This document shows positions 13,598-64,000 of a DNA stretch of 64,000 nt, piece after piece. The notes beneath the pieces were generated by a model. That model searched no databases, was not told the DNA's origin, and saw only the letters and a list, made by a program, of their open reading frames with translations. Made by a program: the position numbers and the translations under genes. How positions within the stretch are numbered: the first letter of the stretch is position 1; the number at the start of each line of letters is the position of its first letter. Origin of the DNA: Protoeuglena noctilucae (taxonomy: Eukaryota > Chlorophyta > Pedinophyceae > Marsupiomonadales > Marsupiomonadaceae); NCBI GenBank assembly GCA_958009085.1, contig OY253675.1:1173398-1237397 (forward strand), given 5' to 3'.

Positions 13598-17218
<3,621 letters not shown>

Positions 17219-18639
17219 GGTAAGCACGCTTTGTCGATCAAAAGCCGCTGCGGGCCGACTCCGAGGACCGATGCGGCCGGAGACGACGCGAGGGACACCG
17301 CAGTCTTGAATGTATGGCGGCTGACGATGCGGATGGTGGAACAACAAAAGGGAGGGGCAACTTTGCCCGCCAGTGTCAGTTGTTTCGCTCGTGGCGCTTT
17401 CATCTCATCCCGCTCTCGGGGGCTCGGGCACTCCTGAGTGTCGGCCCGGCGTGCCACTGGCTGGACCGGGTTCCTGGTGCGGCAGCTGGCTCGCCGGGGA
17501 CTCCAGGTTGCCTCTCTCCGCAGTTGCTGCCACAGGACCCCCTGGCTGCCTTTACCTTCAAGCCCTCCTTCTTGGGTCGCTTTTGGGGGCCCTCGCTGTG
17601 CTCGGCACCCTCGTGGCGCTCGCCCCGGCACGCTCTGAGGCCCCCGTGCACTCTAGGACTTGGAACGGGTTCCGCCGGACCCGCCGGCCTGGAACCGCTT
17701 GAAAGGGGATCCTAACTGGGGAGCGTGTTCATGGTAACCCCTTCTGGGGACCTGGCGGAACCCGCGTAGAGCACGGGGTTCCCCTGGGGAACTGCAGCGG
17801 TGACGCCCGCTTGGAGCCCGCCTGGGAGCCGAATTCCGATCTAGCTCCTTCCATTGCAGCCCTTGCTGCAGCCCCAGCCAGCCCCATGTCGTCCGGGAGT
17901 GGGTCCCTGGGGTGCGTACTTGATGGGCGCACTCGATGGGTGCACTCAATGATTGCTGTCAGGCCGGCCTGGCGATCTTCCGCGCCGCTCACTGCGCGTA
18001 CTCCGTGATCGCCACTCCCTTCTGTCACTGGGTGTACCCGGCCCTCCATGGTTCCCGCGCCCCGTGGGCGCTAACGATCCAATCGTGTCGAGGAAGAGCC
18101 AATCCCTGCCGGGCATCTCCGTCGGGGATCGACTGTTCCTCGTGAAGATCGGGGTATCGGCGCCCCCGGGCAAGGGAGTGACGGTGCAGGGGTGCACAGG
18201 GACGAGGCCTTGCGGGCCTGAGCTCCGGAGGGGGCGGGTGCCCTTGCGCAGCGCAGCAACGCCCCAAGTGAGTAGTGTGGCACGTGCAGCTACGAGCCAC
18301 TGGCCGAGCTCGACGTGTTTGGCGGGAAGGGCGTCACCATCCGCGACCTCCTGGTGAGCCAGCGCGTGCTTGGATAGGTGGTCGGCCCGCCGGCCACGGA
18401 CGCACAGCGACGCCCCGGCATGCCCCTGCGTGCAGGACACTGTGAAGGGCCGGGAGCTGCTGGTGGCCATGGTTGGGACATGGATGAGCAAGGAGGGCTT
18501 CATCGGCTCTGGGCGTTCCCGCTCTCGGTCGGTTTCGGATGGATGGAGCTAGGTCATGGAGGGCGAGGGGGTGGCCATCGATGTTGGGGTGGCTGCGATC
18601 GAGGGTACGGCACATTTGCCGTCGTGCTCGAGGCGGAGG
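17219..18639 (+). other. ADCS upstream region with unrecognised, possibly coding fragments
   Basis: About 1.2 kb of this is shared with the right arm. On the plus strand three short open segments flanked by splice-like signals look coding: one containing GISVGDRLFLVKIGVSAPPG (about 18110-18175), one reading YEPLAELDVFGGKGVTIRDL (about 18289-18350, followed by a GTGAGC donor), and one reading DTVKGRELLVAM (from about 18435). They may be exons of one gene pointing into the assembly gap. I do not recognise the protein and could not join the exons with certainty. Positions 18455-18639 have no counterpart outside the gap. Confidence 0.35.
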
Positions 18640-18839: not shown

Positions 18840-21800
18840 CCCGGCCCTTCACAGTGTCCTGCACGCAGGGGCATGCCGGGGCGTCGCTGTGCGTCCGTGG
18901 CCGGCGGGCCGACCACCTATCCAAGCACGCGCTGGCTCACCAGGAGGTCGCGGATGGTGACGCCCTTCCCGCCAAACACGTCGAGCTCGGCCAGTGGCTC
19001 GTAGCTGCACGTGCCACACTACTCACTTGGGGCGTTGCTGCGCTGCGCAAGGGCACCCGCCCCCTCCGGAGCTCAGGCCCGCAAGGCCTCGTCCCTGTGC
19101 ACCCCTGCACCGTCACTCCCTTGCCCGGGGGCGCCGATACCCCGATCTTCACGAGGAACAGTCGATCCCCGACGGAGATGCCCGGCAGGGATTGGCTCTT
19201 CCTCGACACGATTGGATCGTTAGCGCCCACGGGGCGCGGGAACCATGGAGGGCCGGGTACACCCAGTGACAGAAGGGAGTGGCGATCACGGAGTACGCGC
19301 AGTGAGCGGCGCGGAAGATCGCCAGGCCGGCCTGACAGCAATCATTGAGTGCACCCATCGAGTGCGCCCATCAAGTACGCACCCCAGGGACCCACTCCCG
19401 GACGACATGGGGCTGGCTGGGGCTGCAGCAAGGGCTGCAATGGAAGGAGCTAGATCGGAATTCGGCTCCCAGGCGGGCTCCAAGCGGGCGTCACCGCTGC
19501 AGTTCCCCAGGGGAACCCCGTGCTCTACGCGGGTTCCGCCAGGTCCCCAGAAGGGGTTACCATGAACACGCTCCCCAGTTAGGATCCCCTTTCAAGCGGT
19601 TCCAGGCCGGCGGGTCCGGCGGAACCCGTTCCAAGTCCTAGAGTGCACGGGGGCCTCAGAGCGTGCCGGGGCGAGCGCCACGAGGGTGCCGAGCACAGCG
19701 AGGGCCCCCAAAAGCGACCCAAGAAGGAGGGCTTGAAGGTAAAGGCAGCCAGGGGGTCCTGTGGCAGCAACTGCGGAGAGAGGCAACCTGGAGTCCCCGG
19801 CGAGCCAGCTGCCGCACCAGGAACCCGGTCCAGCCAGTGGCACGCCGGGCCGACACTCAGGAGTGCCCGAGCCCCCGAGAGCGGGATGAGATGAAAGCGC
19901 CACGAGCGAAACAACTGACACTGGCGGGCAAAGTTGCCCCTCCCTTTTGTTGTTCCACCATCCGCATCGTCAGCCGCCATACATTCAAGACTGCGGTGTC
20001 CCTCGCGTCGTCTCCGGCCGCATCGGTCCTCGGAGTCGGCCCGCAGCGGCTTTTGATCGACAAAGCGTGCTTACCATGTCCATCCGGTGCCTGTTGGTGG
20101 ACAACTACGACAGCTACACGTACAATCTGTTCCAGGCGAGACGCAGGCGCGGCGACATCCCCGGCAGCCGGCGCACGCCAGCCACTTGCGCTGCCAGACG
20201 TGCCGTCGTCGCCCCTGCAGCTCCTGTCCGTCGTTGGCGGGGGCCGCGTCGATGTCGTGCGCAACGACGCCGTCTCGTGGGAGGACCTGAGGCCCCGCAT
20301 CGAGGCCGGCGACTGGCACTGCGTCGTCCTCTCGCCGGGGCCCGGCACGCCCGACCGGTGCGTGCAGCCGCTCCCCGCGCCCGCCGCAGCGTGGTCCGCC
20401 CCCGCGTGGCCCGCATCCCCGCCCTCCCGGTCTCCCTCCCGCAGCGCGTCGGACGTGGGCGTGTGCGTGGACGTGCTGCGCCACGTGGCGAGCGTGCCCG
20501 TCCTGGGCGTGTGCCTGGGCCACCAGGCTTTGGCCGCGGCGCACGGGGCGCGCGTCGTGCGGGCGCCGGAGCCCGTCCACGGCCGCCTGTCCCTCCTGGA
20601 GCACGCCGGGCACCCGCTGTTCGCAGGCGTGCCCCCGTCCTCCCCCGTGGTCCGCTACCACTCGCTGGTGGTGGACGCGGCCACGCTGCCGGCGGAGCTC
20701 ACGGCCATCGCGCACTGCACCCGCGAGACCTACGCGCCGCGGGCGGACCCCGCCGGTCGCGCGGGGGCGGACCCGGGGGAGCGGCTGGTGATGGCGCTGG
20801 CCCACCGCACACGGCCGCATGTGGGGGTGCAGTTCCACCCAGAGAGCGTCCTCACGTCGCACGGGTGCGCGGCGCATGCGAACAGCGGCCGGCGCGACTG
20901 GGTCACTGCCTGGCACATGACGGGCGCTCCTCGCATGCTCCCTCGCAGGCCGCGCATGGTGGAGAACTTCCTGCGCATGGCCGCGGCCTTCTGGGGAGGG
21001 GCTACGGTACCTGCATTGCTGGGCGTCCCCGCTGCTGCTGGGGCGATGGTGCACCGGAGTGCACTGGAGGAGGAGTGGGCACAGGCCGGGTGCAGAGGTG
21101 CGTTCGGTGGTGGGGGAGACCATGCGAGGGCAGTGGCGTGTGCGCGTATGCTCTGTTGATCTCATCTGCAGAATAGGGGCGCTGCGTGCAGATGGCTCTC
21201 TGGGGCTGTGCTACCGCAAGGTGGCGGGCGTGCTGGGCGCGGTGGGTGGCTCCGGCAACCTCTTCTGGAGACTGTTTGGGGGGGAAGAGCCCCGGATGCC
21301 GGGCACCGGGTGCTTCTGGCTCGACAGCGCAGCCGCGGACCGGTGAGGGCGGGGCGGTGGGGGACAGTTAGGCGACGCATGGGATGGGATGGCCTGGCAG
21401 CGACGCTGCTGAGCGTGCGTTCGCAGGGGTCGGTTCTCTTTCATGGGGGCGCGGGGAGGGCCCCTGTGGCGGCGGTGGGTGTACTGGGTGCCGCGGGGAG
21501 AGGAGCGGGAGGGGCGGCTCGAGGTCACGGACGGGCCAGGGGCGGGTGAGCTGGCTGCTGGGGGCATTGTCAGCTGCCTGGTTGCAACGCGTGCGCGGAC
21601 ACGTGATGGCATCACCTTCATCGCCCCTCCAGGTGTCAGTGTCGCGGGGGTCCGCTGCTGGGGTCGCTGAAGGCGGCGCTGGGGGAGGCGCGGGTGCGGT
21701 GGGGGCCAGGAGACGCGGCGGCCCTGCCGTTCGACTTCTGGGGGGGCTTCGTGGGGGTACCTGGGGTACGAGATGCACGCCGAGTGCATGGAGGGGGGCG

Positions 21801-21862
21801 GGCCGCAGCCGCGGGACAGGTGAGAGGGTGGGCGGGTGCGCAAGGGGCGGGGGAGGTGTTGT
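18840..21862 (-). repeat. Right arm of ~3-kb inverted repeat
   Basis: Reverse-complement partner of 15436-18454. It is four bases longer, and all four extra bases are single G insertions in G runs near 21535, 21563, 21649 and 21753. It then diverges at 21863, where a weaker match to the sequence outside the left arm continues for some tens of bases. Confidence 0.9.
20076..21825 (+). pseudogene. Inverted partial copy of ADCS, 3' truncated and frameshifted
   Basis: The plus strand repeats ADCS exons 1-7 in order, starting with the same ATG at 20076 and the same GC donor after exon 1. The amidotransferase domain (exons 1-4) is intact in sequence. Exon 6 carries one extra G and exon 7 two extra Gs relative to the left copy, and the PabB exons 8-13, with the chorismate-binding site, are absent. 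At best it could encode a PabA-like amidotransferase fused to a truncated tail. The identity to the working copy is so high that the duplication is either very recent, maintained by gene conversion between the arms, or an assembly artefact. Confidence 0.8.
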
Positions 21863-22414: not shown

Positions 22415-22725
22415 GCGGGCTGGCTGGCGTGCGCCGGCTGCCGGGGATGTCGCCGCGCCTGCGTCTCGCCTGGAACAGATTGTACGTGTAGCTGTCGTAG
22501 TTGTCCACCAACAGGCACCGGAGGGACATGGTTGTGCACGCCATGCTGGTTGAAGGTGCTGCTGCAGGCCGGCTCTGAGGGCGATGGGCGCGGAGGTTAC
22601 GCGTGGGACACCGCGTATCTTTATCTGGATGGCTGGCGAGACAGGAGGCGGAAAATTTAGAGGAGGGAGCCCAGTTGGCCCGCCCCAGTCAGCTGTTTCA
22701 TTCGCGGGGAGGGCTCTGGTTCATA
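22415..22725 (-). pseudogene. Third, decayed copy of ADCS exon 1 and its flanks
   Basis: Positions about 22420-22530 match ADCS 17111-17218 almost base for base, including the 20-codon first exon (with codon 3 changed from ATC to CTC) and its GCGAGA donor. Upstream of the ATG, to about 22725, the match to the ADCS promoter side continues in a diverged form (for example the ctgtttcattcgcgg block against tgtttcgctcgtggc). No other exon is present. Confidence 0.75.
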
Positions 22726-22754: not shown

Positions 22755-22826
22755 GATGCCGTGGCGCAGTGGAAGCGCAGTTGCTTTACACGCAAAAGGT
22801 CGTCGGTTCGAACCCGACCGGCGTCA
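22755..22826 (+). tRNA. tRNA-Val (UAC)
   Basis: A complete 72-base cloverleaf. The acceptor stem is GATGCCG/CGGCGTC with one G-T pair and discriminator A at 22826. The D arm is GCGC/GCGC, and the anticodon loop TTTACAC gives anticodon TAC. The T arm is GTCGG-TTCGAAC-CCGAC. The first pair of the anticodon stem is a G-A mismatch. No intron and no encoded CCA. It lies 25 bases upstream of the permuted tRNA-Ser, so one Pol III transcript might cover both. Confidence 0.85.
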
Positions 22827-22851
22827 CACGGCCTGTGGAACATACAAGCGA

Positions 22852-22960
22852 ACCCTTGGCGGAAGCCGCGCAGGTTCGAATCCTGCCGAACACGGTCTCT
22901 CCCGGATGGATTCTGGGACGACGTGTTCGTCGCCTAGTGGCTATGGCGAGGGTCTTGAAT
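22852..22960 (+). tRNA. Circularly permuted tRNA-Ser (UGA)
   Basis: The 3' half comes first: anticodon-stem strand ACCCT (22852-22856), a long variable arm (GCGG/CCGC), T arm GCAGG-TTCGAAT-CCTGC (22870-22886), acceptor strand CGAACAC (22887-22893) and discriminator G. After 28 intervening bases comes the 5' half: acceptor strand GTGTTCG (22923-22929), D arm GCC...GGC with an AGTGG loop (A box), anticodon-stem strand AGGGT (22949-22953) and loop CTTGAAT with anticodon TGA. The acceptor halves pair 7/7 and the anticodon halves 5/5 only if the order is reversed. Flanking sequences can pair (GGGCC after the 5' half with GGCCT before the 3' half; ATGT with ACAT), as needed for splicing-endonuclease cleavage. 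The long variable arm and anticodon agree on Ser. Confidence 0.85.
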
Positions 22961-22968
22961 GTCGGGCC

Positions 22969-22985
22969 TTTTTGCTTTTTTTGTT
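22969..22985 (+). terminator. RNA polymerase III T-run terminator
   Basis: Runs of five and seven T separated by GC, followed by a further T run, lie 8 bases after the 5' half of the permuted tRNA. This is where Pol III would stop if the two halves are transcribed as one precursor. Confidence 0.75.
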
Positions 22986-22995
22986 TTTCCCGCGC

Positions 22996-23090
22996 CCCGG
23001 GGTGTCAGCTGCCCCGGGGGACGGCACTTCTGCCGCAAGGCGTGGCTCTGAGAGTCATAGCACCCCTCGACTGTTGAATCGCTCATCATC
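22996..23090 (-). repeat. Dispersed repeat, copy 1 (box C/D-like)
   Basis: About 95 bases shared with two other copies (about 23214-23324 and 24036-24146). Read on the minus strand it begins ATGATGA (box C-like) and ends CTGA (box D-like), flanked by short C/G-rich stretches that can pair. Copy 1 lies directly after the Pol III terminator of the permuted tRNA. Confidence 0.6.
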
Positions 23091-23213
23091 TCCGGGGGAC
23101 GGCGCCCCTGTCGCGACCACGCCATGGACCCGCTCGGTGCTGCGGCACCCGGCGCTGGTGCCGCTGTGGACCGAGGCGCAGAGGCTCGCGGCGGGCCTCG
23201 ACATCACTTGGGA

Positions 23214-23324
23214 CTGCAACGATGGAAACCCCGGGGTGTCAGCTGCCCCGGGGGACGGCACTTCTGCCGCAAGGCGTGGCTCTGAGAGTCATAGCACCCC
23301 TCGACTGTTGAATCGCTCATCATC
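23214..23324 (-). repeat. Dispersed repeat, copy 2 (box C/D-like)
   Basis: The same ~95-base core as copy 1, plus ~16 bases (ctgcaacgatggaaac) shared only with copy 3 on the plus-strand left side. The stretch around the box C-like end reads catcatcatc, one triplet longer than in copy 1. Confidence 0.6.
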
Positions 23325-24035
23325 ATCGACATCACTTGGGAGCACGTGCCACGGGAGCAGAACGATACTCCAAGGTCGTCAGCGTGATGGGCCAAGGTCG
23401 TCAGCGTGACAGGCCAAGGTCATCTGGGCGTGTGGGGGCGAGGAGATGAGGGACGGGCCAAGGCCGACGGACGCGGGAGAGGACGGGCCAAGGGCCAAGG
23501 TTGACGTGCGGGAGCGAGGAGCGGGGTCGCGTCGTGGGTCTCTGGGCACACGGCCGAGTGGGTCGTGCCGGCGCACGCACCCGGAGCGGGGCGGTCTGGG
23601 GCGGTCCATATGAGAGGCAGCCGGCCCTCAGGGGCGCCGCGTGGGCGAGCGGGGCGCCCAGGGGCAACGCTGCGCCCCCCAAGGAACGCCGTCTGCGTTC
23701 GGACCGTCCCCACCGCCCTCGCGTCCGGGCCAGCGTCGCCGGGTGGGCGAGCCAGCCGGGCCGCCTGAGGAGGATGGGAGGAGGGTAGGGAGCGGGGGAT
23801 GTCATGATTGGCCGCACATAAGCTACACAGATCGTCATTAGCCTCGGCCTCACCTTTTGTAATAGACGCCCGGGGGTCTCCACGGAGGGCCCCCGCGGCT
23901 GCATCGTCCCACTCTGGGACGGCGATTCTGCCTTCGGGCGCAGCGAGGGGGCTAGGGGTGCAAGAATCCGGGGTGGGCGACCCCTTTGCCTTCGGGTGGG
24001 GCAACCTAGCGGGGGCGGGTCTTAGTGCCGATGCA
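23325..24035. other. No gene recognised; short GGCCAAGG repeats at the left
   Basis: Positions about 23370-23505 contain several spaced copies of ggccaaggtcgtcagcgtga and shorter variants. The rest, up to the third dispersed repeat, has open frames on both strands that look like background. Confidence 0.4.
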
Positions 24036-24146
24036 CTGCAACGATGGAAACCCCGGGGTGTCAGCTGCCCCGGGGGACGGCACTTCTGCCGCAAGGCGTG
24101 GCTCTGAGAGTCATAGCACCCCTCGACTGTTGAATCGCTCATCATC
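24036..24146 (-). repeat. Dispersed repeat, copy 3 (box C/D-like)
   Basis: Core identical by eye to copies 1 and 2, with the same left extension as copy 2. It is followed directly by unrelated sequence (tgggtctctgg). Confidence 0.6.
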
Positions 24147-63737: not shown

Positions 63738-64000
63738 GTTAGGTAGGCAGGTTAGGGTTAGGTAGGGTTAGGGTAGTAGTTTTTTAGGGCTAGTTAGGGT
63801 TAGGTAGGTTTAGGGTTAGGGTTAGGGTTAGGGTTAGGGTTAGGGTTAGGGTTAGGGTTAGGGTTAGGGTTAGGGTTAGGGTTAGGGTTAGGGTTAGGGT
63901 TAGGGTTAGGGTTAGGGTTAGGGTTAGGGTTAGGGTTAGGGTTAGGGTTAGGGTTAGGGTTAGGGTTAGGGTTAGGGTTAGGGTTAGGGTTAGGGTTAGG
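63738..64000 (+). repeat. Telomere, (TTAGGG)n
   Basis: Degenerate TTAGGG-like units occupy about 63738-63810 and perfect TTAGGG hexamers run from about 63810 to the window end. The G-rich strand points rightwards, as expected for a right chromosome end. The repeat is the human-type hexamer, not the TTTAGGG of most plants or the TTTTAGGG of Chlamydomonas. Confidence 0.98.

Follow-up and report, generated by a model that had tools for sequence, protein, structure and literature searches.

A nuclear tRNA-Ser(UGA) gene of the alga Protoeuglena noctilucae, a pedinophyte that lives as the green endosymbiont of Noctiluca scintillans, is very probably a working, circularly permuted gene of type II (junction 37/38), as judged from its sequence and predicted structure, and the searches found three permuted Ser(UCN) genes in all, this one included. 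The gene lies in the 64,000-nucleotide stretch of DNA analysed here (the window), whose end is also the end of contig C8; the assembly searched comprises 26 contigs and 26.3 Mb.

Layout and detection of the permuted locus

Direct reading and a structural scan both place the two halves of tRNA-Ser(UGA) in reversed order at 22851-22959 on the plus strand, with the 3' half upstream of the 5' half and 28 nt between them. The 3' half (22851-22894), which is also recovered by ARAGORN when the halves are joined, begins with A38 (22851) and continues with the 3' strand of the anticodon stem, ACCCT (22852-22856), a 13-nt variable arm (22857-22869) in which a 4-bp stem can be drawn by eye, the T arm with the B box (22870-22886), the 3' strand of the acceptor stem, CGAACAC (22887-22893), and the discriminator G73 (22894). 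CCA is not encoded, GTC standing directly after G73. The intervening sequence between the acceptor strands (22895-22922, 28 nt) has no T4 run. The 5' half (22923-22959), also matched by the covariance model R1 described below, starts with the acceptor strand GTGTTCG (22923-22929) and ends at A37; the D arm with the A box lies between that strand and the 5' strand of the anticodon stem, AGGGT (22949-22953), and the anticodon TGA (22956-22958) sits inside the loop CTTGAA. The 5' half is followed by the trailer of the precursor (22960-22968) and by terminator-like T-runs for RNA polymerase III (T5, T7, and T5 within 22969-22988), so that the first run of four or more T's comes at +9 nt.

Because A37 ends the 5' half and A38 starts the 3' half, the junction is 37/38, i.e., type II. 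The acceptor, anticodon, and T stems consist entirely of Watson-Crick pairs (7/7, 5/5, and 5/5, respectively) and the D stem has 3 of 4 pairs; the acceptor and anticodon stems are perfect in the reversed order only. A long variable arm together with discriminator G73 marks tRNA-Ser, and the locus has both. (A preliminary description of this DNA had already recognised the locus, the upstream position of the 3' half at a distance of 28 nt, the perfect pairing across the reversed order, and the T-runs behind the gene. All of these stand; its coordinates, 22852-22960, were one base off.)

In linear mode ARAGORN calls no tRNA at the permuted locus in any of the seven stretches tested. In circular mode it calls one in all seven, but its reading of the anticodon shifts with the cut points, from Ser(tga) for 22852-22960 to Lys, Gln, Gly, or an ambiguous call for the six other stretches. 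When the two halves are joined at the structural junction, the resulting 81 nt are read by ARAGORN as a complete tRNA-Ser(TGA). This bears out the earlier expectation that the joined sequence would read as tRNA-Ser, as does a conventional tRNA-Val(UAC) at 22755-22827 on the plus strand (ARAGORN; Rfam RF00005, 63.3 bits) the expectation that a permuted tRNA-Ser(UGA) gene stands beside a normal tRNA-Val gene. The tRNA-Val is the sole tRNA called by ARAGORN and Rfam in the whole window; at a relaxed threshold the Rfam tRNA model matches the T arm alone at the permuted locus, with 14.5 bits against a cut-off of 29.

The covariance model R1, which has the halves swapped, was trained on 18 conventional nuclear tRNAs of Protoeuglena, the Ser(UGA) locus being left out. 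Its best match in the window is 22864-22959 (41.1 bits, E 1.2e-9), the next best reaching 15.6 bits. With E allowed up to 1, its 108 matches come from 60 loci. R1 also matches conventional tandem tRNAs, taking the 3' half of one with the 5' half of the next; a plastid Ile-Ala tandem pair obtains 40.6 bits against the 41.1 of the Ser(UGA) locus. Since R1 fires on tandem tRNAs, only loci with pairing of the acceptor and anticodon stems were counted as permuted. In the structural scan, the Ser(UGA) locus scores 40 and is the only hit in the window.

Several other features of the window and of contig ends were seen in passing. An inverted duplication (15436-18454 and 18840-21862; 3.02 kb, 99.8% identical, 385-bp spacer) carries a glutamine amidotransferase gene (PF00117), which may belong to aminodeoxychorismate or anthranilate synthase, and a diverged further piece of the duplication (87%) lies at 22421-22614. 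Directly downstream of the permuted gene are three copies of a repeat of about 112 bp (22979-23090, 23213-23324, and 24035-24146), a 31-bp piece of which is also present downstream of tRNA-Arg(TCT) on contig C17; this repeat may be a mobile element favouring tRNA genes. The window, and with it contig C8, ends in a short-period tandem repeat (63738-64000) that is probably telomeric. A CCCTAA-type telomere is found at the start of contig C7 (L015 1-250), and tRNA genes lie about 0.4-1.6 kb from ends of contigs C2, C7, C11, C17, C20, and C21.

Predicted precursor fold, transcription, and maturation

The 140-nt Ser(UGA) precursor has a predicted fold of -69.8 kcal/mol (z = -5.3), a value equalled by none of 200 shuffled sequences, which bears out the leader-trailer pairing proposed in the preliminary description. 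The leader (22828-22850) is the spacer that follows tRNA-Val and is free of T-runs; in the fold it pairs with the trailer. Its CAAG (22845-22848, positions -6 to -3) can form all 4 pairs with the CTTG of positions 32-35 (22954-22957), giving the 4-bp central helix of a bulge-helix-bulge in which 3-nt bulges, CGA and AAT, hold both splice sites. This central helix is also present in the minimum-energy fold. There the CGA bulge is kept, and A37 and U+1 pair with the leader, which reduces the other bulge to 1 nt; the acceptor, T, and anticodon stems are formed, but the D arm and the variable arm are paired with each other and so lack stems of their own. In the permuted Ser(CGA) and Ser(AGA) genes described below, the 32:-3 pair is kept, but each has only 2 of the 4 central-helix pairs, and their precursors fold no better than shuffled sequences (z -1.2 and -0.4, respectively). 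On these predictions the bulge-helix-bulge would be relaxed or absent in both of these genes. A tRNA splicing endonuclease domain (contig C15, 44.1 bits) and an RtcB ligase (contig C13, seven exon-sized matches) are both encoded in the genome.

In a permuted gene the B box comes before the A box, an order regarded as unsuitable for TFIIIC, and an upstream TATA-like element is thought to stand in for the two boxes (both views from the review PMC3978253). Such an element (TATAA or ATAAA) is found 59 nt upstream of Ser(CGA) and 54 nt upstream of Ser(AGA). Simple patterns detect no TATA-like element in the 85 nt preceding Ser(UGA), and by the same kind of pattern the element is absent in 11 of 32 conventional tRNA genes, tRNA-Val included. 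The tRNA-Val gene and the permuted gene downstream of it are separated by 23 nt, and there is no T4 in 22828-22968. The first run of at least four T's after tRNA-Val lies at +141 nt, past the permuted gene; the corresponding distance is 0-69 nt in all 31 other nuclear tRNA genes compared, two of which come from one array. As no T-run occurs until after the permuted gene, we infer a Val-Ser dicistron, and the arrangement suggests that tRNA-Val is the first cistron of a Val-Ser(UGA) transcript.

The route by which tRNA-Ser(UGA) would be made can be outlined as follows. RNA polymerase III would begin at tRNA-Val(UAC), a gene with normally ordered A and B boxes that lies upstream, and transcription would pass through the permuted Ser gene and end at the T-runs at 22969. 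The tRNA-Val would be freed from the joint transcript by end processing, and the Ser leader and trailer are predicted to pair, creating the bulge-helix-bulge at the anticodon loop. The tRNA splicing endonuclease would cut at 37/+1 and -1/38, and a ligase would join A37 to A38 to give an RNA circle, two steps that are known from other algae. Removal of the 28-nt intervening sequence by RNase P and tRNase Z would then open the circle, CCA would be added to the opened tRNA-Ser(UGA), and the product, as a tRNA-Ser, would read UCA and UCG codons.

The Ser(UCN) genes of the genome and the weighing of alternatives

All three intact Ser(UCN) tRNA genes found (UGA, CGA, and AGA) are permuted. The scan and R1 locate Ser(CGA) at C21:355269-355356 on the minus strand and Ser(AGA) at C3:13423-13511 on the plus strand; both have intervening sequences of 7 nt and acceptor and anticodon stems without a mismatch, and in circular mode ARAGORN calls Ser(cga) at the one and Ser(aga) at the other for 2 of 6 end choices each. 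The three intact loci thus lie on three contigs and have a common architecture. A degraded permuted copy of Ser(CGA), seen by eye and matched by R1 with 34.7 bits, is located on the strand opposite to the intact Ser(CGA), at a distance of about 4.7 kb (C21:350441-350529); it has lost G18G19 and gained one base in the variable arm (the ARAGORN call of Leu for it is a misreading). The degraded and intact Ser(CGA) share 83 of 89 gene columns, and their 94 aligned downstream positions are identical; Ser(AGA) agrees with Ser(CGA) in 79 of 92 columns of the gene and in 39 of 60 of the trailer. Given these shared gene and flank columns, Ser(CGA), its degraded copy, and Ser(AGA) look like one family that has multiplied in permuted form. 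To judge by this family and its decayed member, permuted genes may be copied, drift apart, and decay without leaving the permuted state.

Compared with the CGA and AGA genes, Ser(UGA) has 26/37 or 26/38 matching positions in the 5' half and 35/44 in the 3' half; compared with two Ser(GCU) genes, it has 23/37 and 21/37 in the 5' half and 28/44 and 26/45 in the 3' half. The idea, based on the D-loop, that the 5' half of Ser(UGA) was derived from Ser(GCU) was therefore rejected, both halves being closer to CGA/AGA. The Ser(GCU) genes are conventional and lie on contigs C7 and C24. On C24 (L024, L025), six conventional tRNA-Ser(GCT) genes form a tandem array with a spacing of 2.3-3.1 kb, and in the first 10 kb a 5S rRNA gene on the opposite strand comes after each of four of them.

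A broader reading, to which slightly better than even weight is given, combines two proposals: that Ser(UGA) is the second cistron of the tRNA-Val transcript, with tRNA-Val supplying ordered A and B boxes and no TATA element of its own being needed, and that the whole UCN set comes from permuted genes that multiplied and switched anticodons while permuted. If this is true, the Val-Ser arrangement would explain how the permuted Ser(UGA) gene can be transcribed without an upstream TATA box of its own.

The search for conventional counterparts used two approaches. A pattern of the Ser(UCN) variable arm plus T arm, applied to the whole assembly with up to 3 mismatches, gives 4 matches, all 4 in permuted loci; a reversed-pattern control gives 0. 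A whole-genome search with the joined Ser(UGA) gives no match beyond the two window halves, a result of low sensitivity, as this search missed even the sister genes and so excludes only close copies. Conventional Ser(UGA) was found solely in plastid and mitochondrial contigs. Hence the further point of the preliminary description, that an intact nuclear Ser(UGA) should be lacking elsewhere, fits the 4/4 permuted Ser(UCN)-type 3' halves, within a nuclear tRNA list that is incomplete (63 of 445 family-search candidates scored) and from which a conventional Ser(UGA) could be missing if its 3' half were strongly divergent. Inosine at A34 of Ser(AGA), if formed, could also read UCA, so that Ser(UGA) may not be essential. 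An exact search of the viral contigs with the Ser 3'-half pattern gives no match. In mitochondrial cox1, AGA stands at alanine positions (the expected residues being taken from known cox1 sequences), and the first 250 codons contain no UUA or UUG; by eye, a long reading frame runs from cox1 into a maturase-like stretch, with a group II intron match just after it. These traits are in line with Protoeuglena noctilucae (PMC12574857), and a protein search with rbcL indicates a green plastid.

Other permuted genes were sought with a type II scan limited to junction 37/38 and with a survey of T-loops, which covered 60 of 60 nuclear places of GGTTCGAATCC, 37 of 37 nuclear places of a longer motif, and 100 of 234 places of GGTTCRANTCC (other T-loops on contigs C11 and up lie outside its coverage). 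Beside conventional tRNAs and non-tRNA sequence, the survey yielded the three intact permuted Ser loci and one weak hit (score 34, in L015), which was rejected because it joins two neighbouring conventional tRNAs. A further candidate, L120 (R1 25.3 bits), has no tRNA halves on reading. Sequences that resemble a tRNA 3' half with a T arm occur in L058 (C8:518960-519240, both strands) and L086 (minus strand); ARAGORN and the type II scan both leave them uncalled, and they may be tRNA genes that are rich in introns, permuted in another way, or decayed. Directly 5' of conventional tRNA-Thr(CGT) at the start of contig C7 (L015 428-490; R1 36.6 bits), tRNA-Ala(TGC) on C20 (L012), and tRNA-Arg(CCG) on C15 (L021) lie sequences that resemble a T arm and contain a B box; these may have been left by other permuted or tandem tRNA genes. 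The anticodon GAT is unusual for tRNA-Ile in eukaryotic nuclei. A tRNA-Ile(GAT) lies on nuclear contig C20:885717-885790 (L011), and a nuclear tRNA-Ile(GAT) is named for Cyanidioschyzon in the review PMC3978253.

The Ser(UGA) locus could also be read as what is left of two tandem tRNA-Ser genes without their outer halves, that is, as a pseudogene that merely looks permuted. Permuted genes have been proposed, among other origins, to descend from tandem duplicates whose outer halves were lost (PMC3978253), and a degraded permuted Ser(CGA) copy does exist in the same genome. However, the acceptor, anticodon, and T stems of Ser(UGA) are perfect and its splice helix has 4 of 4 pairs, no outer halves are left at the locus, the joined-order and pattern searches found no conventional nuclear gene to replace it, and decay looks otherwise, as the loss of G18G19 and the extra variable-arm base of the Ser(CGA) copy illustrate; such a remnant is quite improbable. 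Less probable again is a split tRNA, in which two half-genes would give separate transcripts to be joined in trans. The halves are indeed separate in the DNA, but they lie 28 nt apart on one strand, with no T4 in the intervening sequence and a T-run after the 5' half only, a pattern that fits known permuted genes rather than archaeal split genes. That the locus is a product of chance or an assembly artefact is scarcely credible, and no observation speaks for it. When 400 random 64-kb sequences with the dinucleotide frequencies of the window were scanned (25.6 Mb, both strands), nine weaker hits were obtained, the best scoring 36, so that none reaches the score of the locus; moreover, the same architecture recurs at three loci on three contigs. 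A permuted, working tRNA-Ser(UGA) gene remains the preferred reading.

Relation to known permuted tRNA genes

Permuted Ser(TGA) genes of Ostreococcus and Micromonas, whose class is the Mamiellophyceae, were reportedly described by Maruyama et al. in 2010. Table 1 of the review PMC3978253 lists type II permuted Ser(TGA) for Ostreococcus lucimarinus, O. tauri, and Micromonas sp. RCC299, with the same tRNA, anticodon, and 37/38 junction as in Protoeuglena; the intervening sequences are 13, 33, and 12 nt, respectively, versus 28 nt in Protoeuglena, and the O. lucimarinus gene has an added intron at 27/28. Thus, permuted type II Ser(UGA) is already known from Ostreococcus and Micromonas, and the Protoeuglena gene is of the same kind, a likeness that is drawn from tabulated features and not from sequences. 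Unlike those genes, it follows a tRNA-Val without a terminator. According to the same review, permutation tends to affect class II tRNAs (PMC3978253), and the idea in the preliminary description that a class II tRNA is a demanding case for permutation is not upheld.

New here are the pedinophyte as host, the permutation of every UCN gene found, the apparent duplication of genes already permuted, and a plausibly new Val-Ser arrangement. A literature search (subscription papers and supplements lay outside it) found no paper on permuted tRNA together with Pedinophyceae, and the terms dicistronic and polycistronic are absent from the review PMC3978253. Permuted tRNA genes are thereby extended to a further green-algal class, the Pedinophyceae, and to an alga dwelling in Noctiluca, and the Val-Ser arrangement provides a testable explanation for the transcription of a gene whose A and B boxes are misordered.

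Among other hosts, Cyanidioschyzon merolae resembles Protoeuglena in having reversed halves and a T-run after the 5' half, but its junctions lie at several positions and none of its 11 permuted tRNAs is Ser (PMC3978253). Auxenochlorella, of the Trebouxiophyceae, provides a core chlorophyte nucleus with permuted tRNA genes (PMC12633428). The two isoacceptors permuted beside Ser(UGA) in Protoeuglena, Ser(AGA) and Ser(CGA), are likewise the ones permuted in chlorarachniophyte nucleomorphs, those of Bigelowiella natans (PMC3978253) and Amorphochlora amoebiformis (PMC4494063). The B. natans genes share the 37/38 junction and have 5-nt intervening sequences, versus 7 nt in Protoeuglena (PMC3978253); the host compartment there is the nucleomorph of a secondary endosymbiont, whereas here it is a pedinophyte nucleus, and the accessible passages on the chlorarachniophytes do not mention a permuted Ser(UGA) (PMC4494063, PMC3978253). 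As Ostreococcus and Micromonas, the chlorarachniophyte nucleomorphs, and now a pedinophyte all have permuted Ser(UCN) genes, a single versus a repeated origin becomes testable by comparison of the genes.
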